Assembly: GCF_022811645.1 (NCBI RefSeq)
Contig: NZ_CP094536.1
Coordinates: 1 to 64,000, forward strand
DNA length: 64,000 nt
Origin: Hymenobacter monticola
Lineage (GTDB): Bacteria; Bacteroidota; Bacteroidia; Cytophagales; Hymenobacteraceae
Reading direction: 5' to 3'
The notes below the pieces were generated by a model, which worked only from the letters and a program-made list of their open reading frames with translations, was not told where the DNA came from and did not search any database. The position numbers and the translations under genes are program-made. Positions within the stretch are counted from its first letter, which is position 1. The number at the start of each line of letters is the position of its first letter. Positions 24,739 through 53,635 of the stretch are shown piece by piece.

Positions 24739-24778
24739 GTTGCGGCGGCCCCCACGTGCATCCCATGAGCTACCTGCA

Positions 24779-24784
24779 AGTCAT
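24779..24784. repeat. left target-site duplication AGTCAT
   Basis: AGTCAT directly abuts the left inverted repeat and recurs directly abutting the right one at 35615-35620. Confidence 0.8.
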
Positions 24785-24824
24785 GGCCTTGGTTAAAAGT
24801 TTGGTACAAAGGTTAAACGAACAA
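24785..24824 (+). repeat. left 40-bp terminal inverted repeat
   Basis: Differs from the right copy at two positions only. Begins GGCCTTGGTTAAAAGTTTGG. The element boundary is set by the AGTCAT duplication. Confidence 0.82.
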
Positions 24825-24908
24825 CCACTTGATGGGTATGTCAACGCCCGCGTCTCGGCCAAAGACTAACATCTCATTACCCATTTCAGCAAAAAATCAG
24901 CGGCACCA

Positions 24909-24980
24909 TCACACAGCGGCCGCAGTGTAGCCGCCGGGGCCGGAGTCGATGATGAGAACGTCTTAGGAAGAATCGGACAT
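24909..24980 (-). pseudogene. relic of a lipoamide-dehydrogenase/MerA-type flavoprotein N-terminus
   Basis: On the minus strand an ATG at 24980 is followed by codons for MSDSS, a stop, then DVLIIDSGPGGYTAAAV and another stop. This is the FAD-binding start of pyridine-nucleotide disulfide oxidoreductases, where the usual text is DVLIIGSGPGGYTAA. Two in-frame stops and the absence of any continuation show that it is a decayed fragment. No other gene is seen between the left repeat and the CDF gene. Confidence 0.6.
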
Positions 24981-25021
24981 GAGCCGGAGCAGCTTAAGGG
25001 TGAAAAATAGCCAGGCAGTTC

Positions 25022-25918
25022 TTACAGGTGGGTTTCGTGTTTAGCGAAGTCGCCGCGCTCCACCTGAATGGTGGCGTGCTGCACGGCGTGCTTCCCCGTC
25101 ACGTAGGCATGGGCGCGGGCCAGCACGTCATCGTGCTGGGCACCGTCGGCCAACACGACGTGGACGCTGAGGGCGTTGACCCCGGACGTGAGTACCCAGG
25201 CGTGCAGGTCGTGCACGGCCGCCACGCCCGGCTCGGCCAGCAGGCCTTGGCGCAGGGCTTCCAGGTTCACATCGGCCGGGGTGCCTTCCAGCAGCACGTT
25301 CACCGATTCTTTGAGCAGCGCCCAGGTGCGGGGCAGAATGAACAGGCCGATGCCGGCCGAGAGCAGCGGGTCGGCGTAGTACCACTTGGTGGTGAGCATA
25401 ATGACGCCGGCAATCAGCACCCCTACGGAAGTAAGCAGGTCGCTGAGCACCTCGAAGTAGGCCCCTTTCATGTTCAGGCTTTCGCCCGAGCTTTTGCGCA
25501 GCAGGTACACCCCGTAGAGGTTGACCAGCATCCCCACCCCGGCCACCCACATCATGGTGGTGCTTTCCACCTTGGGCGGATTCAGGAAGCGGAAATAGGC
25601 CTCGTAGAGGATATAGAGCGAAATCAGAATCAGCACCACCGCGTTGGTAAGGGCGGCCAGAATCTCGAAGCGGTAGTAGCCGTAGGTGCGCTCGGGGGTG
25701 GCGGGCTTTTCGCCGAAGCGGATGGCGAGCAGGGCCAGCCCCACCCCGGCCACATCGGTGAGCATGTGGCCGGCATCGGCCAGCAGGGCCAGGCTGCCGG
25801 TCCAGAAGCCGCCGATGACCTCGGCCACCAGGTAGGACAGGGTCGTAAAAAAGACGATGGTCAGGGCGCGTTTGTTGCGCGAAGCGGCGCTGCCGCTCAT
25901 GCCGTGGGACTCGCTCAT
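25022..25918 (-). CDS. czcD: cation diffusion facilitator (Zn/Cd/Co efflux)
   Basis: Protein of 298 residues from the ATG at 25918, which overlaps the P-type ATPase stop (ATGA). Six transmembrane helices are visible. SLALLADAGHMLTDVAGVGLAL carries the HxxxD metal site in helix 2 and FEVLSDLLTSVGVLIAG the DxxxS site in helix 5. The C-terminal cytosolic domain has VHDLHAWVLTSG. It exchanges cytosolic divalent metals for protons. The His-rich loop usual between helices 4 and 5 is short here. Confidence 0.92.
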   Translation of the reverse strand: MSESHGMSGSAASRNKRALTIVFFTTLSYLVAEVIGGFWTGSLALLADAGHMLTDVAGVGLALLAIRFGEKPATPERTYGYYRFEILAALTNAVVLILISLYILYEAYFRFLNPPKVESTTMMWVAGVGMLVNLYGVYLLRKSSGESLNMKGAYFEVLSDLLTSVGVLIAGVIMLTTKWYYADPLLSAGIGLFILPRTWALLKESVNVLLEGTPADVNLEALRQGLLAEPGVAAVHDLHAWVLTSGVNALSVHVVLADGAQHDDVLARAHAYVTGKHAVQHATIQVERGDFAKHETHL

Positions 25919-28167
25919 GACTGGTTTCCGGCATGGTGGTGGGGGCCTTCGCGCAGTTCGCGGGGCATGGGCTCGACCACTGACAGGTGCTCTTTTACCT
26001 GCGGGGCGGGGGGAACAGCCGGCGGCGTGCTGCCCGTGCCCGGCGTGGTGTAGTCCATGCGCTGGATGCGCACCGCGTTCAATATTGCCAGCAGAGCCAC
26101 CCCCACGTCGGCAAATACGGCTTCCCACATGGTGGCCAGGCCACCGGCCCCGAGAACAAGCACGATGCCCTTCACGATGAAGGCCAGCCAGATGTTTTGC
26201 CACACCACCGAGTGCGTGGCGCGGGCAATGCGCCGGGCCGTGGCAATCTTGCTGGGGTGGTCGGTCTGAATCACCACGTCGGCTGTTTCGATGGTGGCGT
26301 CGGAGCCGAGGCCGCCCATGGCAATGCCCACGTCGGCCAGGGCTACCACGGGGGCGTCGTTCACGCCGTCGCCCACGAAGGCCAGCTTGCGGCCCGCGTC
26401 CTTGTACTCCTGCACGTAGCGGGCCTTGTCTTCGGGCAGCAGCCCGCCGTGGGCCTCGTCAATGCCCAACTCCTTGGCCACGCGCTGGGTGATGCTGTCC
26501 TTGTCGCCGGAGAGCATGACGATTTTGGTAATGCCGTCGGCCCGCAACTCCTGCACGGTTTGCAGGGCGTCGGCTTTCGGCGCGTCGGCCACGGTCAGGT
26601 AGCCGGCGTACTGGCCATCAATGGCGGCCACCACAATGCTGTCGAACACCTGGTCTACTTCGGCCGGGTAAGCCACATTGAATTTGGTGAGCAGCTTGGT
26701 GTTGCCCGCCAGCACGTCGCGGCCCTCGACCCGGCCGCGCAGGCCGTGGCCGCTGATTTCCTCTACGTTCTCTACGGGCACCCCGGCCGCCGCCGCGCCG
26801 ACGTGCAGCACCACGGCCTTGGCGATAGGATGGGTGGATTTTACTTCCAGTGCCCCAACCAGGCGCAGCATCTGGGCCGCGTCCATGCCGGGGGCGGGCT
26901 GCACCTGCTGCACGGCAAATACGCCCTGGGTGAGCGTACCGGTTTTGTCCATCACCACCGTGTCCAGTTCGCGCATTACGTCCAGGAAGTTGGAGCCCTT
27001 GAAGAGGATACCCGCTTTCGAGGCCGCGCCGATGCCGCCGAAGTAGCCCAGCGGAATGCTGATGACCAGTGCGCAGGGGCAGGAAATAACCAGAAACACC
27101 AGGGCCCGGTAGAGCCAGGTGCGGAACACGTAGTCATCGACCATGAAGTAGGGCACCAGCACCAGCAGCACGGCCAGCAGCACGACAATGGGCGTGTAGA
27201 TTTTGGCAAACTTGGTGATGAACTGCTGGGTTTTGGCCTTGCGGCCCACCGCGTCCTGCACCATCGCCAGAATTTTGGCCAGCTTGGTATCCTGGTAGAT
27301 GGCTGTTACCAGCACCTGCACCAGGCTTTCCTGGTTTATCATGCCGGCCAGCACCACCTCGCCCGTTTGCTTGGTTTGCGGAGCCGACTCGCCGGTGAGG
27401 GCGGCCGTGTTGAACGAGGCCGGGCCTTTGGCCAGCGTTCCGTCGAGGGCCACTTTCTCGCCCGGCCGCACCTCAATCACGTCGCCCAGCTGCACGGCTT
27501 TCGGGTCGAGCACCAGCGACTGACCCCCGCGCACGACCGTTACCTCCGTCGCCTGAATTTCGAGCAGCGCCCGGATGCTGCGCTTGGCGCGGTTCACGGC
27601 CGCGTCCTGAAACAGCTCACCCACGGTGTAGAACAGCATCACGGCCACGCCCTCGGGGTATTCGCCGATGGCAAAGGCTCCGAGCGTGGCAATGCTCATG
27701 AGCAGGAACTCGTTGAACACGTTGCCGGACGGAATGCTGAGCACGGCGGCTTTCAGCACTTTCCAGCCGACCAGCAGAAAGGCCACGCCGTACCAGACCA
27801 AGCGCACGTAGCCGGTAAAAAAGCCCACGTTGTAGTAATCAAGGGCGATGCCGCCCAGCAGCAGGGCCAAACTCACGCCGGGCCAGAGGTAGGGGTTCGC
27901 GCCGGCCGGGCCGTGGTCGTGGTCGTCGCCGCTGGCGTGGTCGTGGCCGGCGTGCTCGTCGACGGCCTTGCCCGCCAGGTCCACCACCTTTTTGCCAACG
28001 GGGTGGTCGTGGCCGGCGTGGTCATGGCCGGGTACGTCGTGGCCTTCGGGGTCGGCGGCGGCTTCAGGCGTGAGCTGGTCGCGGTTGAGGGCGCCCACGT
28101 TTTCGAGCTGCACCTGCTTGGCGGTGTTCAGCTCTTCGTCGGTATTGGGGGAAGTAGGGTCAGGCAT
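25915..28167 (-). CDS. cadA: heavy-metal P1B-type ATPase (Zn/Cd/Pb exporter)
   Basis: Protein of 750 residues. The first 95 residues form a His/Asp-rich metal-binding tail (GHDVPGHDHAGHDH) instead of an HMA domain. Core motifs are SCPCALV (CPC ion site in helix 6), DKTGTLTQG (phosphorylated Asp), HPIAKAV (HP motif) and GDGVNDAPV (hinge). It pumps Zn(II), Cd(II) or related ions to the periplasm, from where the RND system can remove them. First gene of an operon with the CDF gene. Confidence 0.93.
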   Translation of the reverse strand: MPDPTSPNTDEELNTAKQVQLENVGALNRDQLTPEAAADPEGHDVPGHDHAGHDHPVGKKVVDLAGKAVDEHAGHDHASGDDHDHGPAGANPYLWPGVSLALLLGGIALDYYNVGFFTGYVRLVWYGVAFLLVGWKVLKAAVLSIPSGNVFNEFLLMSIATLGAFAIGEYPEGVAVMLFYTVGELFQDAAVNRAKRSIRALLEIQATEVTVVRGGQSLVLDPKAVQLGDVIEVRPGEKVALDGTLAKGPASFNTAALTGESAPQTKQTGEVVLAGMINQESLVQVLVTAIYQDTKLAKILAMVQDAVGRKAKTQQFITKFAKIYTPIVVLLAVLLVLVPYFMVDDYVFRTWLYRALVFLVISCPCALVISIPLGYFGGIGAASKAGILFKGSNFLDVMRELDTVVMDKTGTLTQGVFAVQQVQPAPGMDAAQMLRLVGALEVKSTHPIAKAVVLHVGAAAAGVPVENVEEISGHGLRGRVEGRDVLAGNTKLLTKFNVAYPAEVDQVFDSIVVAAIDGQYAGYLTVADAPKADALQTVQELRADGITKIVMLSGDKDSITQRVAKELGIDEAHGGLLPEDKARYVQEYKDAGRKLAFVGDGVNDAPVVALADVGIAMGGLGSDATIETADVVIQTDHPSKIATARRIARATHSVVWQNIWLAFIVKGIVLVLGAGGLATMWEAVFADVGVALLAILNAVRIQRMDYTTPGTGSTPPAVPPAPQVKEHLSVVEPMPRELREGPHHHAGNQS

Positions 28168-28216
28168 AAGAAAAAAAAGTGTCAGGTTAGAGGATAAAGC
28201 GGCGGTCAGCCAGGGG

Positions 28217-28831
28217 CTACCAGTCCACGAAAAAGCCGGCTACGCCCACCAGCACGAGCACCGCGCCGGTCAGTCGGCGCTCGTGCCGGGCCAGCCCGTC
28301 GAGGTTCAGGCGCTGCAGGCTGCGGTGGGCCAGGGCCACCAGCGCGCACATGGCCGACACGGAGGCCAGCAGGTACACGCTCATGAGCAGGGCCAGGGCG
28401 GCCGGGCCGTGGGTGCCGGCGGCCAGGAAAAAGGTTTGGATTTCCAGGCAGGGGGCCAGAAACATGGTGGCCGCCAACACTGGCACCACGCGCCGGCGCG
28501 GCGTGCGCTGGCTGAGGGGCCGGGGGTCGGGGTGGGTGTGGCCGGTGCCGGAAAAGGCATAGAGCAGCCCGATGCCGATGAGCAGCAGCGGAGCCACCCA
28601 GCCGGCAAACTGCGCGAAGCGGGCCGAAAGCCGCCAGCCGAGCAAACCCAGGGCTAAGCCGATACCCACGGTACTCAGGACGTGGGCGAGTCCGGCCACC
28701 AGCGTCACCCCCACCGCCCGCCGCAGCGGCCAGCCTTCGGCCCGCGCCACGGCCAGCACCGGGGCCCAATGGTTGGGAATGGCGGCGTGCAGCAGGCTGA
28801 GCACCAAAGCACCGGTGAGTAGTTCCAGCAT
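28217..28831 (-). CDS. UreH/TauE-like membrane protein, metal transport candidate
   Basis: Protein of 204 residues from the ATG at 28831, hydrophobic throughout with about six helices. It has an early HAAIPNHWAPVLAVARAEGW motif and a late RRLTGAVLVLVGVAGF. The HAAIPNHW segment with two His is typical of a UreH/nickel-transporter-like group. It begins 9 bp after the YnfA gene ends. A role in metal movement is inferred from context. Longer frames that overlap it (28217-29191, 28206-28949) are shadows. Confidence 0.72.
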   Translation of the reverse strand: MLELLTGALVLSLLHAAIPNHWAPVLAVARAEGWPLRRAVGVTLVAGLAHVLSTVGIGLALGLLGWRLSARFAQFAGWVAPLLLIGIGLLYAFSGTGHTHPDPRPLSQRTPRRRVVPVLAATMFLAPCLEIQTFFLAAGTHGPAALALLMSVYLLASVSAMCALVALAHRSLQRLNLDGLARHERRLTGAVLVLVGVAGFFVDW

Positions 28832-28839
28832 AGGACGGC

Positions 28840-29169
28840 TTACGAACGGGGCCAGAACAAGATGACGGCCAGTCCCAGCAGCACGATGGTTCCGCCCAGC
28901 ACATCGAACCGGTCGGGCCGGAAGCCATCGAAGTACCAGGCCCAGGCAATCGACATGACGACGAAAACGCCCCCGTACACGGCGTAGGTTTTGCCGAAGG
29001 ACGTGGACTGCCAGGTGGCGACCCACCCGTACACGACGAGCAGCACGGCCCCCAGCAGCCCCATCCAGGCCGGACGGTCGGCCTTGAGCCACTGCCACAT
29101 CAGGTAGCCGCCGCCGATTTCGCAGAGGCCGGCGATAAAGAAAAGGAACAAGGGCTGGAGGTAGCTCAT
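28840..29169 (-). CDS. YnfA/UPF0060-family small membrane protein
   Basis: Protein of 109 residues with four helices and the family sequence LCEIGGGYLMWQWLK, then YGWVATWQSTSFGKTYAVYGGVFVVMS divided across helices 2 and 3. It belongs to the small-multidrug-resistance-like UPF0060 group. Often found with metal-resistance genes; function not established. Confidence 0.88.
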   Translation of the reverse strand: MSYLQPLFLFFIAGLCEIGGGYLMWQWLKADRPAWMGLLGAVLLVVYGWVATWQSTSFGKTYAVYGGVFVVMSIAWAWYFDGFRPDRFDVLGGTIVLLGLAVILFWPRS

Positions 29170-29221
29170 GAACTGGGTCGCGGTGAAACAATGGGGTTGA
29201 ACGGCGTTTGCCGGCCGGGGG

Positions 29222-30403
29222 CTATTCCTCTTCCTCGGCGTTTTTCATCTTGGCCAGCAGGGAATAAGCCCCATCCGTGACGAAGCTGCTTGTGGCCGGT
29301 ACTCCTTCCGGCAGGGTGATTTCCGTGAAGCTGTCTTCGCTGCGGCCCAGCGTCACGGGCACCATACGGTAGCGCCCGGCGGCTACCACGGCGAAGGCGT
29401 AATTCTTGCCCTCGAAGCGCACCAGGGCGGCATCGGGCAGCGTGGGGGCCTGGGTGCGGCCGGTTTCAATCATGGCCCGCACGTAGAGTCCGGGCAATAG
29501 CGTGGGGTCGTTTTCCTGGTCGAGGTGGCCGTGCACGCGCACGGTGCGGTCTTCGCCAATGGCTTTGCCGACCAGGTACACCCGGGCCGTGCGCTCCCGG
29601 CGGGTGCCGGTGGAGTCGCTGGCCAGAGTAAAGCGAATCAGCTGGCCTTTCTGCACGCGGGCCACGTCGCGCTCGAACACCGTCAGTTCGACGTGCAGGT
29701 GGTCAGGGTCTACAATCTCAAACAGGGCGTCGGTGGCCGTCACGGCTTGGCCCACAGTCACGTTCACGGCCCGCACGAAGCCGGCCCGGGGGGCGCGAAT
29801 GGCAGCGGTCGTGACCATCTTGCCGCCGACGGGCAGGCCCGCCAGCCGCAGCCGGGCGGCCTGGGCATTGGTCTGCACGCGCAGGGCGTTGTAGTCGGCC
29901 TGGGCACGCTGGTAGTTTTTCTGGGGTGCTACCTCCTGCTCATACAGCTCTTTCTGGCGGGCCAGTTCGGTGCGGGCGTATTCCAGGCGGGCGCGGGTTT
30001 CGAGGTAGTCTTGCTGCAACGTCACAAACTCCGGGTTGCGGATGGTGGCCAACACTTCGCCCTTGCGTACGCGGGCTCCTTGCAGCAATTCGGTGTTGTC
30101 CACGAAGCCGCCCAGTGGGGCTGTGATGGACACGGCGCTTTCCGGGGGCACGTCCAGCGTGCCGGTCACGGCCAGGCCCGCGCCCATGGGCCGGTCGGCC
30201 AGACGGGCGGTTTTCAGGCCGGCGGCCTGCTGCTCGGCCACGGAGAGGGTCACGACATCGGAAGCATCTTCGCCTTCCGCTTCACCGCCGGCTTCCTTGC
30301 CTTCGGTGGCGGCGGTTTCCGCGTCCGCCTCTTCTTTCTTATCGGCACCGCAGCCGGCCAGGGTCAGGCCTAGCAGCAGCACCAGGGATGCAATCTTATT
30401 CAT
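29222..30403 (-). CDS. czcB: RND efflux periplasmic adaptor lipoprotein (CzcB-like)
   Basis: Protein of 393 residues with a lipoprotein signal (LLLGLTLAGCG, Cys18) and an acidic Glu/Ala-rich linker. The membrane-fusion body follows: lipoyl half-motifs (APLGGFVDNTELLQGARVRKGEVLATI and AAIRAPRAGFVRAVNVTVGQAV, each here cut for length), a coiled-coil hairpin (about 130-190) and a beta-barrel domain. It bridges the CzcA pump to the outer-membrane channel. Located 25 bp after the CzcA-CzcC gene in the same operon. Confidence 0.9.
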   Translation of the reverse strand: MNKIASLVLLLGLTLAGCGADKKEEADAETAATEGKEAGGEAEGEDASDVVTLSVAEQQAAGLKTARLADRPMGAGLAVTGTLDVPPESAVSITAPLGGFVDNTELLQGARVRKGEVLATIRNPEFVTLQQDYLETRARLEYARTELARQKELYEQEVAPQKNYQRAQADYNALRVQTNAQAARLRLAGLPVGGKMVTTAAIRAPRAGFVRAVNVTVGQAVTATDALFEIVDPDHLHVELTVFERDVARVQKGQLIRFTLASDSTGTRRERTARVYLVGKAIGEDRTVRVHGHLDQENDPTLLPGLYVRAMIETGRTQAPTLPDAALVRFEGKNYAFAVVAAGRYRMVPVTLGRSEDSFTEITLPEGVPATSSFVTDGAYSLLAKMKNAEEEE

Positions 30404-30427
30404 GGGATTCAGGTCAGGGGGAAGAAA

Positions 30428-33400
30428 TTACTGGGCTGCTGTGCCCAGCAGGTAGTCCAGGTCAATGGCGGTTTGGTTGTGCGCCAGCACGGCATCGAGG
30501 TAGGCCGTGCGCACAGTCAGGGCGCGTTCCAGGTTCAGCAGCAACTCGGAATAGGTGGTTTCACCAGCTTTATAGGCCAGTTGGCTCAGGCGCACGATAA
30601 CGGCCGCCTGGGGCAGGCCGGTTTGCTCGTAGAACTGCACCCGGCGCTGCTGCTCCAGCAGGCGTAGGCGCAGCTCATCGAGCTGGGCGGCGGCTTCGGC
30701 CTGGTAGCGCTGATACGTCGTCGTAGCAACCTGCTCCTGCAATTTGGCCGCCTGTACCCGTGCCTTCTGCGGGCCGCGCAGCAGCGGAATGGCCACCCCG
30801 GCCTGCACGCTCTGGAACCGGTCGCCGGTGCCGTAGGTCGTAGCCTGCCCGTCCACCTCGTAGGTGCCCCGCAGCGACTGATTGGTATAGCCCACCGTCA
30901 CTTGCGGCAGCCCTTGGGCCTGCTCCACGCGGGTTTCGGCCCGGCGCTCGGCAATCTGCTGCTGCAATACCCGGGCTTGGGGCGTAGCGGCCAGTACCGA
31001 CGTGTCAGCCGCGGCTCCGGAGGCAGGCAGCAGGCGCAGGATACTATCGGCAATGGCGACCGGCTGCGTGGTTTGCAGCAGGGCCTGTAGCTGGCGCTGG
31101 GCAATGGCGTAGTCGGCCCGGGCCTGGGTGAGCAGGTTTTGCGTCTCTCCCTGCTGAATCAGGGCGTTGGCCGGCTCCAGGCGGGCGACTTCCCCGGCTT
31201 TGAAGCGCAGCTGCGCGGCGCGCAGGAATTCGGTGTAGATGCTGTCCTGCCCGCGCAGCGTGCGCAGCCGGTGGCGGGCGTGTACGGCCCGCTCGTAGCT
31301 CAGGCGCACCTGCCGGCGCAGCTCGGCCTGCACTTGCGCCAACTGCTGCTCCCGGCCCCCAATCTGGGCCTGGCTCAACCCCGCCTGGGCTTTGTAGTAG
31401 CCCGGCAACGCCAGCGACTGGCCGATGCTAAACACGTTGTCGGACAGCGGGGAGTTGACTTGCCCGTAGGTGCCCAGAATCGTGGTGCGGCCTACGTCAA
31501 AGGAAGTTCGGCGCAGGGCCTGTTGGGCTTCCAGGGAGCGTTGGGCCGCCTGCACCGTGCCGTTGGCCTGCAACGCCTGCCCTACGGCCTGGGTGGCGGT
31601 AAGCGCACCCTGCGCCCGGGCGGGCACGGCGGCAAGCAAGCCCCCCAGCACGAGCAGCAGCACCGAAACCGGTACGGCAGCCGTCGGCCGCGGCTTCTCT
31701 TCTCCCTTCGGTTCGGACTTGCGCTCGGACAGGGCGTAGAGCACCGGCAGCACCAGCAGGGTGAGCAGCGTGGCCGTTACCAGCCCGCCGATGACGACGG
31801 TGGCCAGCGGGCGCTGCACTTCGGCCCCCGCTGACTGCGACAGGGCCATTGGCAGGAAGCCCAATGAGGCCACGGTAGCCGTCATCAGCACCGGCCGCAG
31901 GCGTACCTGCGTGCCTTCCAGAATGCGCCGGTAAAGGTCGGTGTGGCCTTCCTCTTTGAGTTGGTTGAAGTAGCCGATGAGCACGATGCCGTTGAGCACG
32001 GCCACCCCGAAGAGGGCAATGAAGCCCACGCCGGCCGAGATGCTGAAGGGCATGCCCCGCAGCCACAGGGCCAGCACCCCGCCGATGGCCGACAATGGAA
32101 TGGCCGTGAAAATGAGCACTGACTGTTTCAGTGACTTGAAGGTGAAAAACAGGAGCACGAAAATCAGTAGCAGGGCCACCGGCACGGCAATGCTGAGCCG
32201 CTCGGAGGCCTGGCGCAGGTTCTCGAACTGGCCGCCGTAGGTGGTGTAGTAGCCGGGCGCGAACTTCAGCTGCCGGTCCACTTTGCCCTGCAGCTCGGTC
32301 ACAACGCTTTCCACGTCGCGGCCCCGCACGTTGAAGGCCACCGTGATGCGGCGCTTGGCGTCGTCGCGCTGAATCTGGTTGGGGCCTTCTTGCAGCTCCA
32401 CCGTGGCAACCTGCTCCAGGGGAATCTGCTCGCCGGTGGGCGTGGCCACCAGCAGCTGGCGCACGTTACCGATGTTCTGGCGCAGCTCCGGAGCCAAGCG
32501 CAGCACCACATCAAAGCGGCGCTCCTGCTCGAAGAGCTGCCCGGCGGTCTGGCCGGCAAAGGCCGTTTGCACCGTGCGGTTCACGTCCTCCGCATTCAAG
32601 CCAAAGCGGGCCAGGCGGTTGCGGTCGAGCTTGACCACGATTTGCGGCAGGCCCGTGACCTGCTCCACGTACACGTCTTCGGCCCCTTCCACCTGGCGCA
32701 CCAGGCGGGCGGCCCGCTCGGCGTAGGAAGCCAGCTGGGTGAGGTCTTCGCCGTAGATTTTCAGGACCACATCCTGCTTAGCCCCCGAAATCAGCTCGTT
32801 GAAACGCATCTGTATAGGCTGCTGAAAGCCGAAGGTTACGCCCGGAATCACGCTCAGCGCTTCGGCCATCTTGCCGGCCAGCTCTTCCTGCGTTTTGGCG
32901 GAAGTCCACTTGCCCTGGTCTTTTTCTAGGATAACCATCACGTCGGCCGCTTCCACAGGCATGGGGTCGGTGGGTATCTCGGCCGCCCCGATTTTGGCCA
33001 CCACCTCCTTGACTTCGGGAAACTGCTTCTGCAGGATTGTTCCGGCCTGCAGGCTCCGGTCCACGGTGTAGCTCAAGGAGGAGCCGGTGAGCGTGCGCAG
33101 TTCAATGGCAAAATCTCCTTCGGCCAGCTGCGGGATAAACTCCCCGCCCAGGGTGCGGAACAGCAGCAGCGCCCCGACGAACAGGGCCACGGCCGAGGTC
33201 AGTACCACCGCTTTGCGGCGCAGCGCCCATTCCAGCACCGGGCGGTAACGGGCTTCGAGCCAACTCATCATCCGGTCGGAGAAGTTGCGCTTCACTTCCG
33301 TCGAGCGGCTCAAGGCCAGGGCCGACATCATGGGCACGTAGGTCAGACTCAGGATGAACGCCCCGATAATGGCGAAGGCCACGGTCTGGGCCATCGGCCG

Positions 33401-34831
33401 GAACATCTTGCCCTCAATGCCCACCAGCGCCAGCAGAGGCAGGTACACAATCAGGATGATGATTTCGCCAAAGGCGGCCGAGGAGCGGATTTTACTGGCC
33501 GCGTGGTAGGTTTCCTCGTTCATCTGCTCGGTGCTGAGCCGGTTGCCCGGGACCCGCAGCTGCCCGCCGTGCAGGCGGTGCACGATGGCTTCGACGATAA
33601 TCACGGCCCCGTCCACGACCAGCCCGAAGTCGATGGCTCCCAGGCTGAGCAGGTTGCCCGACACGCCGAACAGGCGCATCATGCTGATGGCAAACAGCAT
33701 GGCCAGCGGAATAACGGAGGCTACTACCAGCCCGGCCCGCCAGTTGCCCAGAAACAGCACCAGTACGAACAGCACAATCAAAGCGCCCTCAATCAGGTTG
33801 GTTTTCACCGTGCCGATAGCGCGGCCTACCAACTCGGAGCGGTCCAGGTACACGTCGATGGCCACGCCCTCCGGTAAGGATTTCTCCACCGTCAGCATCC
33901 GGGTTTTCACGTCCTTAATCACGTCGTTGGCGTTGGCTCCTTTCAGCATGAGCACGATGCCGCCGGTCACTTCGCCCTCCCCGTTGCGGGTCATGGCCCC
34001 GTAGCGCACGGCCGAGCCCGGGCGCACGTCGGCCACGTCGCGCACCAGCACCGGCATACCGCCCGCCGTGCTGCGCACCACGATGTTGCCCAGGTCGGCG
34101 GCGTTTTCAGCCAGCCCTTCGGTGCGGATAAAGTAGGCCGTGGGCTTCTGGTCGAGGTAAGCGCCGCCCGCGTTCTGGTTGTTGCGCGAAACGGCCTGAT
34201 ATACCTGTTCCGTGGTGACGTTCAACGAGCGCAGGCGGGTCGGGTCCAGCCGGATTTCAAACTGCTTGAGCTGGCCGCCGAAGCTGGCCACGTCGGCCAC
34301 GCCGGGGGTGCCCAGCAGCTGCCGGCGCACTATCCAGTCCTGAATCGTGCGCAGCTCGCGGGCGTCGTACTTCTTCTCGAAGCCGGGCTTGGCGCGTACC
34401 AGGTACTGGTAGACTTCGCCCAGACCAGTACTGACCGGAGCCATTTCGGGCCGGCCGATGCTGGCCGGGATTTGGCTTTCGGCTTCGCGCAGGCGCTCCC
34501 CGACCTGCTGGCGGGCCCAGTAAATGTCAACTTTATCCTCGAAGACGATGGTAACCACCGAGAGGCCAAAGCGGGAAAAGGAGCGCACTTCCTCCCGGCC
34601 GGGAATGGTAGCCAGGCTCTGCTCGACGGGGAAGGACACGAGGCGCTCAATGTCGCTGGCAGCCAGCGAAGGAGCCACCGTATAAACGACAATCTGGTTG
34701 GTGGTAATATCGGGCACCGCGTCAATCGGCAGCCGGCTCAACGAGTAGCTGCCCCAGGCCACCAGGGCCAGGGTCAGAATCCCGATAATGAGCTTGTTGT
34801 GAATGGAAAAATGAATCAGCCGGTCAAACAT
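30428..34831 (-). CDS. czcA: CzcA-type RND metal pump fused to a CzcC/TolC outer-membrane factor
   Basis: Protein of 1,467 residues. Residues 1 to about 1,030 are a heavy-metal RND pump: N-terminal helix (LIIGILTLALVAWGSYSLSRLP), VVDGAVIIVEA with the proton-relay acidic residue in helix 4, and the C-terminal helix set ending LPVLYALSERK. After a charged linker a new hydrophobic segment ending in ARAQ acts as an internal signal or transmembrane anchor. About 1,060-1,467 is an OMF (TolC-like) domain with repeated coiled-coil stretches. The fusion joins inner- and outer-membrane parts of one tripartite pump. Confidence 0.93.
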   Translation of the reverse strand: MFDRLIHFSIHNKLIIGILTLALVAWGSYSLSRLPIDAVPDITTNQIVVYTVAPSLAASDIERLVSFPVEQSLATIPGREEVRSFSRFGLSVVTIVFEDKVDIYWARQQVGERLREAESQIPASIGRPEMAPVSTGLGEVYQYLVRAKPGFEKKYDARELRTIQDWIVRRQLLGTPGVADVASFGGQLKQFEIRLDPTRLRSLNVTTEQVYQAVSRNNQNAGGAYLDQKPTAYFIRTEGLAENAADLGNIVVRSTAGGMPVLVRDVADVRPGSAVRYGAMTRNGEGEVTGGIVLMLKGANANDVIKDVKTRMLTVEKSLPEGVAIDVYLDRSELVGRAIGTVKTNLIEGALIVLFVLVLFLGNWRAGLVVASVIPLAMLFAISMMRLFGVSGNLLSLGAIDFGLVVDGAVIIVEAIVHRLHGGQLRVPGNRLSTEQMNEETYHAASKIRSSAAFGEIIILIVYLPLLALVGIEGKMFRPMAQTVAFAIIGAFILSLTYVPMMSALALSRSTEVKRNFSDRMMSWLEARYRPVLEWALRRKAVVLTSAVALFVGALLLFRTLGGEFIPQLAEGDFAIELRTLTGSSLSYTVDRSLQAGTILQKQFPEVKEVVAKIGAAEIPTDPMPVEAADVMVILEKDQGKWTSAKTQEELAGKMAEALSVIPGVTFGFQQPIQMRFNELISGAKQDVVLKIYGEDLTQLASYAERAARLVRQVEGAEDVYVEQVTGLPQIVVKLDRNRLARFGLNAEDVNRTVQTAFAGQTAGQLFEQERRFDVVLRLAPELRQNIGNVRQLLVATPTGEQIPLEQVATVELQEGPNQIQRDDAKRRITVAFNVRGRDVESVVTELQGKVDRQLKFAPGYYTTYGGQFENLRQASERLSIAVPVALLLIFVLLFFTFKSLKQSVLIFTAIPLSAIGGVLALWLRGMPFSISAGVGFIALFGVAVLNGIVLIGYFNQLKEEGHTDLYRRILEGTQVRLRPVLMTATVASLGFLPMALSQSAGAEVQRPLATVVIGGLVTATLLTLLVLPVLYALSERKSEPKGEEKPRPTAAVPVSVLLLVLGGLLAAVPARAQGALTATQAVGQALQANGTVQAAQRSLEAQQALRRTSFDVGRTTILGTYGQVNSPLSDNVFSIGQSLALPGYYKAQAGLSQAQIGGREQQLAQVQAELRRQVRLSYERAVHARHRLRTLRGQDSIYTEFLRAAQLRFKAGEVARLEPANALIQQGETQNLLTQARADYAIAQRQLQALLQTTQPVAIADSILRLLPASGAAADTSVLAATPQARVLQQQIAERRAETRVEQAQGLPQVTVGYTNQSLRGTYEVDGQATTYGTGDRFQSVQAGVAIPLLRGPQKARVQAAKLQEQVATTTYQRYQAEAAAQLDELRLRLLEQQRRVQFYEQTGLPQAAVIVRLSQLAYKAGETTYSELLLNLERALTVRTAYLDAVLAHNQTAIDLDYLLGTAAQ

Positions 34832-35029
34832 CCGTTGCTGTGGGGGTTAGGTCTAACACTTTCAGTGAATAGCCTGCTCACCCGGCGGTTCCGGCTACTG
34901 AGCGCGGGAACGGCGGGGATGGAACGCACTTCTGGGGCCAACGCCACGCGTTAGCAAGCTCCGACCAGCCGGCTCCACAAGGAAGCAGGCCGCCCGGACA
35001 GGGTGGTTAGCAGGAAAAAGAGGAAAGTA

Positions 35030-35359
35030 TTAGGCCTGGGGCGGCTGCCACACAGAACCGAGGGCCCGCGTCGGGGCACCCACTATCAGCCGGCCGTGCT
35101 GGGGGCTGGTGCCCCACTCCACCAACTGGGGGTAAGCAGCTACGGCCATGCCTGGCAGTGTAACCACCACCCCGCCGCAGCAGTGGCACTGGCAGAGCGG
35201 CGAACACCAGTCACCCAAGGCGTCGGAGCTGCAGTCCGAATGCGTAGCCGCTGCCACCGTTGTCTGGGCCTGGTCCTGGCACACGGCTACCTCGTCCGTG
35301 CAGGTCATGCAGGAGAGGAACGCGAAGTAGCAGGCGAAAAACAGGCTGAGCAGGCGCAT
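35030..35359 (-). CDS. DUF6660-family small secreted protein
   Basis: Protein of 109 residues from the ATG at 35359. MRLLSLFFACYFAFLSCMTCTDEV is a signal or lipoprotein leader with clustered cysteines. Further cysteines and histidines occur in CSPLCQCHCCGG. The pattern matches DUF6660 proteins, which in Bacteroidota sit before metal-efflux operons. It is upstream of the CzcA-CzcC gene on the same strand with a 200-bp gap. A periplasmic metal-binding or sensing role is plausible but not shown. Confidence 0.72.
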   Translation of the reverse strand: MRLLSLFFACYFAFLSCMTCTDEVAVCQDQAQTTVAAATHSDCSSDALGDWCSPLCQCHCCGGVVVTLPGMAVAAYPQLVEWGTSPQHGRLIVGAPTRALGSVWQPPQA

Positions 35360-35574
35360 GAAGCGGCAAAGGTAGTGAATCCCGGGGGCCGGAGCTGCTT
35401 TTACCGCTAAAGTCCGGTGAAGGTTCCCCGACCGAACAACTAGCCCGGTAGGGCTGCCCCCGGGTGAAGTTCCGGGCGGGTACTCCTTGTTTGCTGAAAA
35501 GCGGTCAGGGCATTTTCCCAGCGCGAAGTCCTGCAAGAAAGCCTTTTTGCCTTCCGTTGTTGGTGCTAGTTAAC

Positions 35575-35614
35575 TTGCTCGTTTAACCTTTGTACCGAAC
35601 TTTTAACCAAGGCC
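35575..35614 (-). repeat. right 40-bp terminal inverted repeat
   Basis: Reverse complement of the left repeat with two mismatches; followed directly by AGTCAT (35615-35620), the right target-site duplication. The 215 bp between the DUF6660 start and this repeat hold no gene that I can see. Confidence 0.82.
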
Positions 35615-35620
35615 AGTCAT

Positions 35621-35945
35621 CCGGCACCTCGAGCAAGTTTTGAACGGCTGTGGGGACCCGGTTCGGTTCACGCCCACCGGCCGGAAGCTGCTGAACGCGA
35701 CCGGCACCCTGATGGCCGTGGAAGTGATGCGGGTAGATGTGCTGGCGCACAACGACTGCTTTGCCGTGCCGCCGCCCGTGCCGGCCTACGCGCATAATCG
35801 CAAAGGCTGCTACACGGTAAACATCGTGCACATCCCACCCCTGCTGGCCGAGGCTTATTCCACCGGCCGCCGCTACACCGAGGCCGAAATAGAAGGGTTG
35901 ATTCGGACCAGTACGTCCCTTTTCTCATGTTACCTGCTGGCCTGA
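35621..35945 (+). pseudogene. 3' part of the 114-residue gene split by the 10.8-kb element
   Basis: The frame continues from the 20-bp 5' part at 24765-24784 and codes IRHLEQVLNGCGDPVRF to the stop at 35945. The whole restored protein would be 114 residues. It has GRKLLNATGTLMAVEV and a C-terminal half with RRYTEAEIEGLIRTS. I do not recognise a family; no signal peptide is seen. As it stands the piece lacks a proper start (only a TTG at 35640), so it is probably not made. Confidence 0.78.
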
Positions 35946-37205: not shown

Positions 37206-38135
37206 CTATCGCAGGCCCTGCATTTTCAGGAACAGGCCCCCGGGATTCTTGGTGGCCTTAATTTTATCGGTCTTCAGCTTGTAGATGAAGGCAAACAAAG
37301 CATCCACGTGCTTAGGAGACTGCAAAATGTCCTGCACCAGCTTGGGCTCCTGAACGCCCAGGGTTTCAAGGTGCTTGCGGGCCAGCTGCACCTTGGCATC
37401 ATCGGCCTCCAGCTCGAAGGGGATGGGCAGCTGCTGCGGCACCTGGGTGTTGACGTAGAACTTAATGCTTTGGAAGGAGCGTCCCTTCTTCAGCAGCTCG
37501 TACTTGATGCGCAGGTCGGTGTGCTCGTTTATCTGCGTCGTGGCCACGTCGAGCACGTACTTCTGCAGCGAGGAAATCTGGGCGTACTGCTCGGGCTCTT
37601 TACCCGCCGGGTCCTTGAGCTTGAGCATGCCCTTGAACTCATCCAGGGAGTAGGTCTTGGTTTCCCCGATGTCCTTCCACTGCGAGGCCAACTGGTAGAT
37701 GCGCTTGGCATACTTGCTCGACAGGCTGAAAGCCGCCTGTAGGCGGTAAGACGTGAAGTTGCTCTTCAGGTCAATCAGGAAGGGCCGCATGCGCTCGGAT
37801 ATCTCCAGCTCGATAGTGCCCTCACCCTTGCGGTACAGGGCCGAAGCCAGTAGGCTCACCTGCAGCAGGGTTTTGCCGGTCTCGATGTGGTAGACGCGGC
37901 TGTTGAGGTTCTCGGTGGATTCGAGCAGCTGCTTGTAGTTCCAGGTCCGGCCCGTCATCTCCATGAGCTCCTGCACCCGGATTTCATAAATGGTACCGGC
38001 CTTATCCTGCTTGGTGAGCTTGGAAAGCAGCGAAAATACGATGTCCATCTCGCAGGCACTCATCTCGTAGCGGGCCGTCGTCAGCGCATTATGCTGCCGA
38101 ATTTCTATCGGGACGGTGGATTCGGGCGCGGCCAT
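37206..38135 (-). CDS. repB: plasmid replication initiator, Rep_3 type
   Basis: Protein of 309 residues with the two winged-helix layout of Rep_3/RepB initiators: NALTTARYEMSACEMDIVFSLL near the N-terminus, then SLSSKYAKRIYQLASQWKD and TYSLDEFKGMLKL in the second domain. It binds iterons to open the origin and represses its own promoter. The iteron array begins 104 bp upstream of its start. This is the strongest evidence that the window is plasmid DNA. Confidence 0.92.
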   Translation of the reverse strand: MAAPESTVPIEIRQHNALTTARYEMSACEMDIVFSLLSKLTKQDKAGTIYEIRVQELMEMTGRTWNYKQLLESTENLNSRVYHIETGKTLLQVSLLASALYRKGEGTIELEISERMRPFLIDLKSNFTSYRLQAAFSLSSKYAKRIYQLASQWKDIGETKTYSLDEFKGMLKLKDPAGKEPEQYAQISSLQKYVLDVATTQINEHTDLRIKYELLKKGRSFQSIKFYVNTQVPQQLPIPFELEADDAKVQLARKHLETLGVQEPKLVQDILQSPKHVDALFAFIYKLKTDKIKATKNPGGLFLKMQGLR

Positions 38136-42344: not shown

Positions 42345-42822
42345 ACATCATTCTAGCAACCTCAAGCCGTACAAAACGGCCATTCAGGTCGGATATCTTA
42401 AGTATTTGTTAAGCTGCTCGCTGGAGACTCAGATGCGTGATAGCATCATTATTTCCGGCAGCGTACTTCAAAAGGGGCTCATTGCTGGCTGCCCTGTGTG
42501 CAGTCAGATTGCACAATTGCTTTGAACAAAGAAAACAGGAGGGCAAACATTATTGCTATAGTGAAAATTATTCATTTGTAAATCAGTCAGTTAATATGAT
42601 TTGCCAAGCATTAGATGAAAAAATATGCGTGTAATATAAACTGTGCAGATAGACTGCACAGTAGAGTATTTGCTTTGCCATGGCAACAGAGTAAATCCTT
42701 GCTCAGTCGTAGCCGGACATCGGTTGAGTAAGGAGGGTAAGTTTGTTGCTACCCATTTTTTGGCTGAAACTAGAAACAGCGGAGTAGCTGGTGAACGGTT
42801 TCAAAAACTTGAATTCAGAGGA
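42345..42822. promoter_or_regulatory. divergent control region with two identical operators
   Basis: 478 bp without a convincing gene. It contains two copies of TGTGCA-N7-TGCACA, at 42497-42515 (spacer GTCAGAT) and 42642-42660 (spacer GATAGAC; extended to CTGTGCA/TGCACAG). Identical half-sites and spacer length, between a WYL regulator and a divergent effector operon, mark them as its operators. A 60-codon in-frame extension of the MBL gene runs back to 42643 but begins inside the second operator and is not favoured. Confidence 0.78.
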
Positions 42823-43968
42823 ATGCATAAAATCACAATCTATAACCTAGGCAATGCCGATACCTCGCGCATTGACCTCGCGAACGGCAAGAAGCTTCTG
42901 ATTGACTACGCCGACATGCGGTGCGCTACCGACCCCAAGGATAAGCGCACGGACTTGCCAGTGCAGTTGCGGGCCGATTTAAAAACTGCCAAGCGCAATT
43001 ACTACGACGTCGTAGCATTCACCCACTTAGACGAAGACCACACGTATGGGGCTTCCAGCTTTTTCGAACTGTTGCACGCGGCCAAATACCAGGGAGCAGA
43101 CCGAGTGGTTATCAACGAATTGTGGGTGCCCGCAGCGGTAATCTTAGAGGATGGCTGCGAGGATGAAACCCGTATTCTGCGCCAGGAAGCCCGTTATCGA
43201 CTGAAGCAGGGCAAAGGCATCCGGGTCTTTTCGGGTCCCGACCAGCTCACCGACTGGCTGGCTGGTGAAGGGTTGACGGTCGCTGACCGGCAAGACCTCA
43301 TCACGGATGCCGGCAACCTGATTCCGGGATTCGGATTGGATACGGATGGGGTGGAGTTCTTCGTGCACTCCCCGTTTGCAAGCCGCACGGCGGGTGGGGG
43401 CCTGGCCGCGATGGACCGCAACAGCGACGCGCTGACCTTTCAGGCAACGTTCCAGGAAGGAAGCCAAAAAACCCGGATGCATTTCTTCTCCGACATCGAC
43501 TGGGAGGTGATAAAGTCAATCGTGAAGGTAACGGAGTATTACGGCCAGAAGGACCCTGCCCGTCTGGAGCGCCTGTGGTGGGATATCTTCAAAATTGCCC
43601 ACCATTGCAGCTACAAGTCGTTGAGCAGTGACAAGGGCAGCGAAGTGACAGTGCCCGACGAACATGTGAAAAAGCTGTTCGAAACGTACGGGCAGAATAG
43701 GGCTCGCCTTATTTCAACCAGCAAGCCCATTCCCGGCAACGACGATGACGTGCAACCTCCGCATCGCCAGGCCGCCGCTTACTACAAGGGCCAAGCCAAA
43801 CGGCTAGGTGGAGAGTTTTTGGTGACGATGGAGCACACAAGCATCTTGTATCCCGAGCCCATCGTCATCAAGATTGACCAACTCGGGGCCAGCATCGGTA
43901 AACTAGCTGCGGCCGCCAGTGTAGCGGGCGGCAGCATCCCTCCACCCCGGGCCGGGCGGCCTAGCTAG
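42823..43968 (+). CDS. metallo-beta-lactamase-fold protein, first gene of the E2-E1-JAB operon
   Basis: Protein of 381 residues from the ATG at 42823 (MHKITIYNLG). VVAFTHLDEDHTYG contains the MBL metal motif in the variant HxDxDH form (H68, D70, D72, H73). FKIAHHCSYKSL supplies later ligands. The architecture resembles ComEC/Rec2-type MBL hydrolases, which act on nucleic acids or small esters. Its stop overlaps the GTG start of the E2-E1-JAB gene, so the two are tightly coupled. MBL genes are known companions of bacterial E2-E1-JAB cassettes. Confidence 0.85.
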   Translation: MHKITIYNLGNADTSRIDLANGKKLLIDYADMRCATDPKDKRTDLPVQLRADLKTAKRNYYDVVAFTHLDEDHTYGASSFFELLHAAKYQGADRVVINELWVPAAVILEDGCEDETRILRQEARYRLKQGKGIRVFSGPDQLTDWLAGEGLTVADRQDLITDAGNLIPGFGLDTDGVEFFVHSPFASRTAGGGLAAMDRNSDALTFQATFQEGSQKTRMHFFSDIDWEVIKSIVKVTEYYGQKDPARLERLWWDIFKIAHHCSYKSLSSDKGSEVTVPDEHVKKLFETYGQNRARLISTSKPIPGNDDDVQPPHRQAAAYYKGQAKRLGGEFLVTMEHTSILYPEPIVIKIDQLGASIGKLAAAASVAGGSIPPPRAGRPS

Positions 43969-45275
43969 TGGATTCTCCGATGAACGCACGCGAATCAGAA
44001 TTTTATCCGTTGCTAGGGGACGCAGTAGAAGCTGTGACTCTGACAATACCGAAAGCCGTTGAATTGGTGCAAGCCCTGCAAAGTCAGGGCTTGCCCTATA
44101 TGCGGCTGGTGAATTGTCTACGTTTCGAAGACCACGAGGTAGTCGTAGTTGATGTCGAGCCCGAGGTGCCCCAGCATCCGGTCCACGACGTGCGCAGTGT
44201 TGAGCGAATAGCGATTGTCTATGCTCAGGTGGATACCGACCACCAGACTATTCTGGCGTTACGCCGAGACTTCCCCTTGGTGCCACACCTCCATTTTGGC
44301 GACGAAGGAATGCCTCGCAGCCTGTGCCTGTACCAAACTGCCTACGCCGACCTGAAACCGACTTGGACGGCAGCAGCTCTTCTTCGGCAGCTGCAGCACT
44401 GGTTAACCCAAACGGCACGTGGAGAACTGCACGCCGCTGACCAAGCCCTGGAGCAGGCATTTTATGCACCCAGGGAGCGGCTCGTGTTGCCATCTGCCTT
44501 TTTTGCGCCCGATGCGTCGGCTGTTCTAGAGCCCATCATAGTGCGTTTCGCCAGCAAAGTGCTTGGTCAGATAACGTTGGTAGCGTCGCCTGTATCTGCA
44601 GTTTCAGCCACCGAAGGCCAGCAAGCCCAGTTGGCTAGTTTTGTCTATACAGCCCAGCCGCAGGTGCACGGCCTCATTCACGAACAACCACGTACGCTCG
44701 CCGCGCTCCAAGATTACTTAGCTGAAACCGACGCCGGTTTTACGCACGCGCTGCGGCAGCACCTGTTTGCACTAAAGGGGGCTCCCTCCTTTGATAGTGG
44801 GCTGAAGCTTCTGATTATCATACGGCTTCCCAAGCGGCGGACGGCGACGGGAGCGGTCGAAGCGATGGAGGTGTGGGGATTTGCTTCGTCCAGTACACTA
44901 GCTGAAATCGGTACAGACCTCGGAATTTGGGAAGTATACGAAAACAATCTAGCTCAACTGTTTCCAATCGACTCAGCTAAAACGGGTCAGGAGAGCACCC
45001 TGATTTTACTTAACCCGGTTTGTGCACTGACCCGTAAGCTGGCAGCTGCCTATAATGGCCTGCGGCCCACCGAGACCCGTTTCGTAGCTATTGGAGCGGG
45101 TAGTTTGGGGTCGCAAGTAGTGAATAACTTGGTGCGCGCCGGGCAGGGCAATTGGGTTTGGCTGGATGAGGACCAGTATTTACCTCATAATGCAGCTCGT
45201 CACTACCTGCCAGGTAATCTGGTTGGTCATGGCAAAGCACAGGCGATGGTGTCGCTGTTGAAGGGGTCGCACTAG
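43968..45275 (+). pseudogene. E2-E1-JAB polypeptide, 5' part (disrupted by Tn3 transposon)
   Basis: Codes for residues 1-432 of a restored 757-residue protein, then three codons of transposon end and a stop. Start is the GTG overlapping the MBL stop; an ATG lies at 43980. Residues 1 to about 165 are E2-like: MPRSLCLYQTAY has the candidate catalytic Cys120, followed by a Trp and the LLRQLQHWLTQ helix. About 170-365 is an unassigned middle domain. At 370 the E1/ThiF Rossmann fold begins (FVAIGAGSLGSQ, then LDEDQYLPHNAARH). The truncated product keeps E2 but loses most of E1. Confidence 0.88.
45258..45262. repeat. left 5-bp target duplication TTGAA
   Basis: TTGAA abuts IRL and is repeated abutting IRR at 53631-53635. 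Five bp is the standard Tn3-family duplication. Confidence 0.95.
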
Positions 45276-45301
45276 AGTAGGAACGGAAAACAACGCTAAG
45301 G
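45263..45301 (+). repeat. Tn3 IRL, 39 bp
   Basis: Perfect inverse of IRR. The transposase stop codon (complement of 45296-45298) lies inside it. Confidence 0.95.
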
Positions 45302-48300: not shown

Positions 48301-48316
48301 GGAATTCTACGGGCAT
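45296..48316 (-). CDS. tnpA: Tn3-family transposase
   Basis: Protein of 1,006 residues from the ATG at 48316 (MPVEFLSDEQAARFG), the usual Tn3 transposase start; a GTG or ATG further up at 48355 is less likely. DTHGYSDVVFGLFSLLGYRF contains the first catalytic Asp and LSPLLHEHVNMLGRYDF the catalytic Glu near the C-terminus. Full family length with no frameshift. It cuts at the 39-bp ends and performs replicative transposition. Confidence 0.95.
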   Translation of the reverse strand: MPVEFLSDEQAARFGCYADEPSPEQLARFFYLSAADGHLLAARRRPANKLGCAVQLCTLRFLGTFLTDPLRVPTVVVQTLAEQLHLPADALAAYRTRPNTWYDHQARIVAHLGYTPFDGRQAFRLTRWLYAQVLTSTVRPSVLFDLTTAHLVAQRVVLPGVSLLARLIARVRERTGRHLYRQLRTRLNPPQQAALETLLTVPAGERLTHLERLRTPPTRVSAPALAAALRRVDEIRALGVSAVPVADLPEARLARLARHAQLAWAQTLVRMGEERRLATLLVFAQTLERTATDDVLDLFDSLLTSLALRGETKRRRERLRSLKDLDQAALLLQQAVELLLDEAVPAGQVRQQVFDRLGQAPLRAAAATVQALASPPEDPLAEALSGSYATVRRFLPALLTGIAFEGTPTARPLLEAWAFLQGQEAGGRGRPKWSAAPRTVVPKGWARRVFPAKGEVNPQAYTLCVLERLQQAVRRRDVFVPTSERHADPRAELLRGAAWEAARDSVARALDRSLNPAVELARLGQLLRTAYAEVGEHLAQNTALQVVEQDGQPVVTLSALPAQDESDLLAHVREQLAAALPQVEVAALLREVDAFTGFAAAFTHVADGQPAAADLPLSICAVLLAQACNLGLKTVARADVPALTLARLAWVQQNYLRAETLTAANARLVDAQAGLPLAQAWGGGEVASADGMRFVVPVRTLHAGWNRKYFGSQRGVTYYNFTSDQFTGFHGIVIPGTLRDSLFILAGLLEQQTRLDPREIMADTHGYSDVVFGLFSLLGYRFSPRLADLADQRFWRLEKEDDYGPLNELGRHVVNARLIHDHWDDMLGLAGSLKLGKVKATAVMRTLQRAGSLSGLGRAVAELGRVEKTLYLLAYVQDEAYRRRILVQLNRGEGRHAVARAVFHGKKGELRQRYREGMEDQLGALGLVVNALVLWNTRYLQHALERWQQTEGVLNPDDVARLSPLLHEHVNMLGRYDFSLPEDIAAGEMRPLRNPASWEERLAEFP

Positions 48317-48414
48317 GGGCCGGGAGGCAGCGAGGGAATAGGCCAACCGTCGCATGGCGCCGCTATCAAACCGGAATAGCCTGCCAGAAAGCCCTGAGCC
48401 GCGCTGTTATGGTA

Positions 48415-49809: not shown

Positions 49810-49936
49810 GTGTTTTTTGCTGGGCAATGGGAGGGACAGGTGGTGAGGAAACGCATGCGCTGGCTTGTTGGCGTAGGGTAGTCCGACAAAGCTCCCGCAC
49901 GATTCTGAAGTCATTCTGTAGTTTCCTACGCTTGCC

Positions 49937-50719: not shown

Positions 50720-50780
50720 AGAGAAAAGCAGCAGGTACGCCCCAAACGTAGGGGGCAATTCTGTGCACATTCTGTAATGG

Positions 50781-52729: not shown

Positions 52730-52822
52730 GGGAGTGCAAGGTGAGGAACGGCGGAAAGGTAGCCGGCAATTCTGAAGACTTTCTGACGGGGGCACTGGGC
52801 TGTCTGGATAGAAAGGCCGGAA

Positions 52823-53416: not shown

Positions 53417-53591
53417 AGGCGGTATTCTCAGGAAGTCAGCAGGAGCAAAGATAGCGAGCCATTGATTCGTGAGAACAGCATATGAGACAGTTTTTGCCCG
53501 ACTCGTAAGGGGGCCAAACGAGCGCGACCAGCGGAACGGAAAAACGCACGTTTTCTGAGACACCCCGACCCCGCCAAAATCGACTACCCGG
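53417..53591. other. candidate res site of the Tn3 element
   Basis: Non-coding gap between tnpR and IRR. It contains two copies of TGAGACA (53484-53490 and 53556-53562) and a CATATG-centred dyad near 53480. This is the expected position for res sub-sites, but I cannot delimit them. Confidence 0.45.
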
Positions 53592-53630
53592 CCTTAGCGT
53601 TGTTTTCCGTTCCTACTCTAGTGCGACCCC
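53592..53630 (-). repeat. Tn3 IRR, 39 bp
   Basis: Perfect reverse complement of IRL, followed by TTGAA at 53631-53635. Confidence 0.95.
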
Positions 53631-53635
53631 TTGAA

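Follow-up and report, generated by a model that had tools for sequence, protein, structure and literature searches.

We analysed the first 64 kb (hereafter the window) of a 120,137-bp contig from Hymenobacter monticola (NZ_CP094536.1), which carries a 10,830-bp block, consisting largely of metal-efflux genes, between inverted 40-bp ends (24785-35614). This block is very probably a non-autonomous cargo transposon derived from the Tn3 family and lacking an enzyme of its own, and the copy in the window was likely inserted in trans. The contig encodes a Rep3-type initiator (37206-38135) and is therefore probably a plasmid.

The insertion and its empty sites

An earlier note on this DNA, made from the sequence alone, had described a 10.83-kb block with 40-bp ends matching at 38 of 40 positions and the hexamer AGTCAT at both edges; coordinates and sequence agree with that description. 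The boundaries and the gene into which the block is inserted are as follows:

24765-24784, forward strand: first 20 nt of the 114-codon gene that the block interrupts, with the left target copy among them; from the joined frame and uninterrupted homologues
24779-24784, no strand: left copy of the target-site duplication AGTCAT, exact, abutting the left end
24785-24824, forward strand: left terminal inverted repeat, 40 bp, 38/40 identical to the right end
35575-35614, reverse strand: right terminal inverted repeat, 40 bp, 38/40 identical to the left end
35615-35620, no strand: right copy of the target-site duplication AGTCAT, exact, abutting the right end
35621-35945, forward strand: remaining 3' portion of the same 114-codon gene; from the joined frame and homologues

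When the flanks were joined by script with a single AGTCAT, a frame of 114 codons resulted. The 114-residue peptide finds matches in four of 120 Hymenobacter genomes (E <= 0.001). In the window's own genome the match is cut by the element and covers residues 6-114 only, whilst in three other Hymenobacter genomes it extends over residues 1-114 or 1-113, with 82, 75 and 72% identity and no stops; one of these three also contains an additional partial match that includes a stop. At the junction the corresponding DNA has the target once only, as AGTCAT in two genomes and as GGTCAT in the third. Because these homologues read through the junction with one target copy, the insertion is real and the uninterrupted form of the gene exists. 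The proposal that the block left a clean transposition scar, and that its removal restores the frame, is thus borne out by the joined flanks and by the empty sites, in which the gene is intact.

Within the whole genome (6,124,749 bp in seven contigs), a search at 37 fixed positions allowing up to three mismatches returned two end matches in all, both belonging to the element, and the reversed pattern returned zero under the same settings. A shorter 19-base pattern identified three further sites in the genome. Two, on contig C5, form a 261-bp miniature pair that lacks a matching duplication (C5:4968-5228), and the third is a single end on contig C4 with no partner within the 20 kb examined (C4:14994).

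A family of ends in Hymenobacter

The exact 17-mer GGCCTTGGTTAAAAGTT from the end of the element occurs in at least 120 stretches of genome contigs, 112 of these 120 being titled Hymenobacter. Matches in metagenome-assembled genomes of Saprospiraceae, Bacillota, Campylobacter and Burkholderiaceae (L022, L040, L098, L103 and L106) do not continue past the 17-mer and were discarded as chance. Allowing one mismatch in 19 fixed bases, ends are present in 85 of 120 Hymenobacter genomes, and the reversed pattern is found in none of the 120. Other genera of the same family contain such ends in two of 84 genomes, both from one genus (87/204 overall). The two checks suggested in the earlier note, for further copies of the ends and for empty sites, thus both gave a positive result.

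A survey of loci L003-L122 and L187-L206 together with the window, accepting up to five mismatches to the first 26 bases, yielded 190 unique ends and 67 unique inward-facing pairs, a good number of them composed of ends that cannot be true partners; the left terminal repeat of the element belongs to the same family as 188 unique ends from other loci. Exact 6-bp duplications flank 16 of the 67 pairs, the window's included, and a further pair (L099) matches at five of six positions. No exact duplication was found at 4, 5, 7 or 8 bp, in four shifted controls, or in any of nine divergent pairs. The outer flanks of the 188 ends (the window's left out) are also biased, with A at position -6 in 141 and T at position -1 in 140, an independent sign of a 6-bp target. 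Conservation within the repeat partly reflects the way in which the ends were chosen, a bias from which the flanks are free.

Transposases associated with the ends

The earlier note could not name a family for these ends. In H. cyanobacteriorum (L071) a protein of 1,044 residues, which matches PF01526 (E 1.6e-116) and NF033527 (664 bits, where the cut-off is 500), terminates 28 bp short of the outer edge of a family end and lies beside a serine resolvase. Near-full-length Tn3 TnpA is encoded between two family ends in five elements (L187-L191, L190 being the same place as L071), and two of these, L189 and L191, have exact 6-bp duplications. Closely matching TnpR (98-100%) is found in L189 and L190; the other three contain only a 122-residue resolvase-like match of about 52% on the strand opposite to tnpA. 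Since five elements with such ends encode Tn3 TnpA, we assign the ends, on sequence grounds, to a Tn3-family lineage of Hymenobacter.

Full-length TnpA is absent from 14 of the 16 exact-duplication elements, so that many members may escape annotation that relies on transposase genes. In a survey that included draft assemblies and scored at most six candidates per genome, a TnpA without interruption, at least 76% identical along nearly all of the query, was found in 13 of 120 genomes, all 13 of them among the 85 that possess ends; in further genomes (e.g. G043, G113, G087 and G078) only interrupted or partial copies were seen. Searches inside the window element turned up no intact transposase, resolvase or integrase, nor a TnpA match at E 1e-4. 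Two Tn3 transposases are encoded elsewhere in the genome, one on contig C2 and one in a second transposon of the window, but these are 37% and 27% identical, respectively, to the TnpA of the family and are associated with quite different ends. Both are unlikely to be cognate helpers, the second also being flanked by a 5-bp duplication. With no close TnpA found in this genome, the element is probably stranded unless a plasmid bearing one arrives.

A tnpR relic and a probable tnpA tail at the ends

Short pieces of transposon-derived DNA are apparent at both extremities:

24785-24916, forward strand: left transposon-derived piece, 132 bp; cargo homology begins at 24917 in seven of 11 relatives
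24847-24912, forward strand: relic of the 5' part of tnpR, 66 bp; corresponds to nucleotides 17-53 and 91-119 of the L189 tnpR, 59/66 identical
35538-35614, forward strand: right transposon-derived piece, 77 bp; in L210 and L211 homology to the cargo stops at 35537

The first 63 to 67 bases of the left piece, comprising the repeat and subterminal sequence, match the ends of miniature elements at 88-89%. The tnpR relic carries a 37-nt internal deletion relative to the L189 gene, and its local alignment scores 63, compared with a maximum of 35 in 1000 shuffles. This relic indicates that the lineage once had its own transposition genes. The presumed res of L189, between the left repeat and tnpR, has no match in the element beyond its first 63 bases at E 0.1; one further match, obtained with the L187 sequence (E 0.07), was taken as chance. 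Neither an intact resolvase gene nor the presumed res site was found in the element, the 66-bp relic being all that was seen of tnpR. The earlier note's statement that no transposase, resolvase or integrase is visible stands in that none intact was found, although the tnpR relic at the left end had escaped it.

The 77-bp right piece is located where the last codons of tnpA run into the repeat. In position-locked alignments to nine tnpA tails (among which L046 and L189 are one place), none of 2000 shuffles was as good for two of the nine, and between 2 and 55 of 2000 were as good for the other seven. The piece is probably a decayed 3' tail of tnpA.

The inner borders of these pieces were located by comparison with 11 stretches containing related metal operons (L208-L218). 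In seven of them (L208-L214) homology to the window begins at element base 133 (24917), with a gap further inside the homology in L208, L209 and L213; the remaining four begin later, at base 230 (L215), 1272 (L216 and L217) and 2562 (L218, where the start is set by the end of the stretch compared). The right border of homology lies at base 10753 for L210 and L211 and at base 10747 for L212; in the remaining eight stretches homology breaks off sooner. No family ends were found in the L208-L218 stretches, allowing up to seven mismatches in 26. The simplest history compatible with these borders would be loss of res, tnpR and tnpA between the ends, together with capture of a common plasmid operon.

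TnpA-less relatives at several sites

Two other members of the family occur at multiple sites. A 17-kb member is present in three genomes (L196, L198 and L199) at unrelated sites with the duplications AAGGCT, AACCGT and AATACT. In all three, tnpA is represented only by a tail of 95 residues broken by stops. The copies are 93-97% identical, the third having an alignment gap. A 10.3-kb member, which retains only an N-terminal fragment of TnpA, was sought in 11 genomes and found with both ends in eight stretches and with one end only in three. Six of the eight two-ended stretches have an exact duplication and together represent four different sites, with AGAAGT and ATAAAT in one stretch each, ATCTTC in two, and AATGGT in two, one of these on the other strand. 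The exceptions are L227, in which the left end is decayed, and L236, which has an insert and unequal flanks. Seven copies of approximately 10,323 bp (L227, L228, L230, L231, L233, L234 and L235) are 99.7-100% identical in seven Hymenobacter genomes, and their near-identity at several sites suggests very recent spread between species. The cargo of this member includes LysR and sulfate-exporter genes, both by eye and by annotation under overlapping plasmid matches. Among the candidates scored in the 11 genomes, an uninterrupted close TnpA is present only in G059, the copy in G043 containing two stops.

Because near-identical copies occupy unrelated sites, each with its own duplication, these TnpA-less elements appear to be mobile, and the simplest reading is that they moved in trans or with a helper that was later lost. 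The earlier note had left open whether the window element moves in trans or lost its enzyme; given the tnpR relic and the mobile TnpA-less relatives, both seem to apply.

Transposase-less elements of the family range from 0.36 to 17 kb and carry mercury-type, metal-efflux, sulfate-exporter, hydrolase, regulator and other genes. One further member of 3.2 kb (L057:4640-7827) has the same ends, an exact duplication and, by eye, genes for an ArsR-type regulator, a MerT-like protein and a mercuric-reductase-like protein. Another stretch (L192:1151-14283) is a 13.1-kb composite: one extremity is formed by a 368-bp miniature element and the opposite one by a distinct pair of ends spanning 1.9 kb, the duplication AACGTT being common to the outermost ends only. 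On balance we favour the view that the family constitutes a genus-wide system of trans-mobilised cargo on Hymenobacter plasmids, in which a few Tn3-type transposases would serve many transposase-less elements and the non-autonomous form would be the usual gene carrier.

Proposed history and alternatives

Relics and breakpoints are consistent with an ancestor of the form IR-(res)-tnpR-tnpA-IR (IR, inverted repeat) that would have lost its presumed res, the greater part of tnpR and almost the whole of tnpA, a plasmid metal-efflux operon coming between the two surviving ends. A Tn3-type TnpA supplied from elsewhere would have bound the 40-bp ends, and the block entered the 114-codon gene with duplication of 6 bp. 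Transposition would presumably have been replicative, and host recombination would have been needed to resolve cointegrates.

Several observations weigh against this history. Among the matches listed, the full 10,830-bp alignment is found in the window's own genome only, and there is no second copy; three of the five TnpA-bearing elements (L187, L188 and L190) lack a matching duplication; free local alignment of the right piece to the tnpA tails gives scores (27 and 26) below the best of the shuffles (33 and 36, respectively) and is not significant; and the use of drafts with six candidates per genome could hide some TnpA genes. The absence of a second copy of the deleted form among the matches listed, like the persistence of relics of tnpR and probably of tnpA at the ends, would suit a different order of events, in which the element jumped with its own tnpR and tnpA and lost them later in place, making trans-mobilisation unnecessary for this copy. 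We consider this unlikely, although it is the strongest competitor. TnpA-less members have moved as such (the 17-kb element at three sites and the 10.3-kb element at four), and the metal operon begins at the tnpR relic, so that the operon seems to have arrived in the same change that removed the enzyme.

Insertion in trans by a Tn3-type enzyme is also to be preferred to movement by an IS1182-family transposase, such as that encoded in L080, where 2,056 bp lie between such ends and the duplication is exact. An IS1182-type mover is very improbable: L080 is the only one of eight exact-duplication elements in L003-L122 to have IS1182 between its ends (L187-L206 were not searched for it), matches in L088 and L039 lie outside the ends, and resident copies (L123-L125) are without such ends. 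L080 moreover contains the two end pieces of a miniature element, as would be expected if IS1182 were an insert or passenger, and it is Tn3 TnpA that lies between such ends in five elements. That the ends and duplication of the window element are due to chance or to an assembly artefact is more improbable still, as the 38/40 match and the 6-bp duplication fall at the exact edges and the ends recur in 85 of 120 congeneric genomes against none of 120 for the reversed pattern; this family of ends refutes it, as do the empty sites.

Relation to known systems

The element resembles the Tn3 family in its 40-bp ends, its 6-bp duplication and its same-ended relatives with a TnpA of about 1,044 residues, but differs from autonomous Tn3 transposons in having no intact tnpA or tnpR. 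Tn3 ends usually begin with GGGG, as do those of the second Tn3 in the window, whereas those of the element begin with GGCC. The basic anatomy of Tn3 transposons is outlined in PMC7157771. We do not regard the 6-bp duplication as a novel trait, such duplications being on record for Tn3434a, Tn6122 and Tn5393 in PMC3281130 and for some TIMEs in PMC4133298.

By description, the closest known systems include the TIMEs, TIME-RES and TIME-COMP, non-autonomous Tn3-family elements of Pseudomonas whose movement is ascribed in PMC4133298 to Tn3-type TnpA in trans. As described there, they too have ends of about 38-40 bp, no transposase, a 5- or 6-bp duplication and cargo between the ends. In that account TIMEs are 262 bp and non-autonomous elements reach 3,892 bp, compared with 10,830 bp for the window element, and TIME-COMP consists of two TIMEs, whereas the window element has single relic ends of 132 and 77 bp around a 10.6-kb operon. 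A complete miniature element is not present at each end: the left has 63-67 bp of a miniature-element end, and the right end of the L093 miniature element matches the window over the repeat only. With transposon-derived pieces of 132 and 77 bp and no complete insertion sequence, the block was also rejected as a composite transposon based on insertion sequences.

Mobile insertion cassettes are ascribed to Bacillus cereus in PMC3281130 and are also named in PMC4133298. The window element shares with them cargo between ends, the lack of a transposase and a flanking duplication, but host, transposase and cargo are different and one family of ends is found throughout Hymenobacter. Tn3-type mobile insertion cassettes occur in Xanthomonas. 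Trans-mobilised non-autonomous Tn3 cargo is therefore already known, and its scale within one genus would be the unusual part. A literature search to which subscription journals were mostly inaccessible returned no report of this Hymenobacter end family. Naming this formerly unassigned transposon provides a diagnostic end sequence for finding further transposase-less cargo in Hymenobacter, and the genus offers a natural system for studying the reach of Tn3-type transposases in trans and the resolution of cointegrates without res.

Cargo genes

The genes between the relics are all on the reverse strand:

25022-26203: cation diffusion facilitator (CDF) transporter; PF01545 and TIGR01297 above cut-off; true start probably inside the open reading frame (ORF)
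25915-28167: Cd/Zn-type heavy-metal P1B ATPase; TIGR01525 and TIGR01512 above cut-off
28217-29191: ORF without a Pfam or NCBIfam family, hydrophobic by eye; overlaps ynfA; true start probably internal
28840-29169: YnfA/UPF0060 small membrane protein; PF02694 and NF002586 above cut-off
29222-30403: CzcB-type periplasmic adaptor; PF16576 and TIGR01730 above cut-off
30428-34831: CusA/CzcA RND pump with a C-terminal outer-membrane factor domain in one frame of 1467 residues; TIGR00914 and PF02321
35030-35536: DUF6660 protein; PF20365 (E 1.7e-6, just over cut-off); no NCBIfam match

Read from the right end, the order is DUF6660, the CusA/CzcA fusion, CzcB, YnfA, the family-less ORF, the P1B ATPase and CDF. 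TIGR00914 covers residues 1-1044 of the fusion, and the best stretch for PF02321 is 1280-1463. The earlier note had regarded all recognised genes as concerned with metal efflux, which is mostly the case, although YnfA, the DUF6660 protein and the family-less ORF are also present. The gene families suggest that the element confers or assists metal efflux. Similar metal operons are found on many Hymenobacter plasmids (26 matching records, 24 of them from Hymenobacter), and parts match in 119 of 120 Hymenobacter genomes (E <= 0.001).

A second Tn3 transposon in the window

A complete Tn3 transposon of 8,368 bp (45263-53630) has identical 38-bp ends (GGGG...TAAG) and a 5-bp duplication, TTGAA. It encodes an intact TnpA (45296-48355, reverse strand) and a resolvase (52823-53563, reverse strand), and its cargo appears by eye to comprise an outer-membrane protein, a PAP2-like protein and a two-component system. 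The transposon is situated between an E2/ThiF (E1-like) gene (43968-45275) and a JAB gene (53631-54614), and weak matches to Lamassu models lie nearby (LmuA at 42643-43968 and 54611-56044, LmuB at 58010-60541); from this placement it seems to split a ubiquitin-like defence gene.

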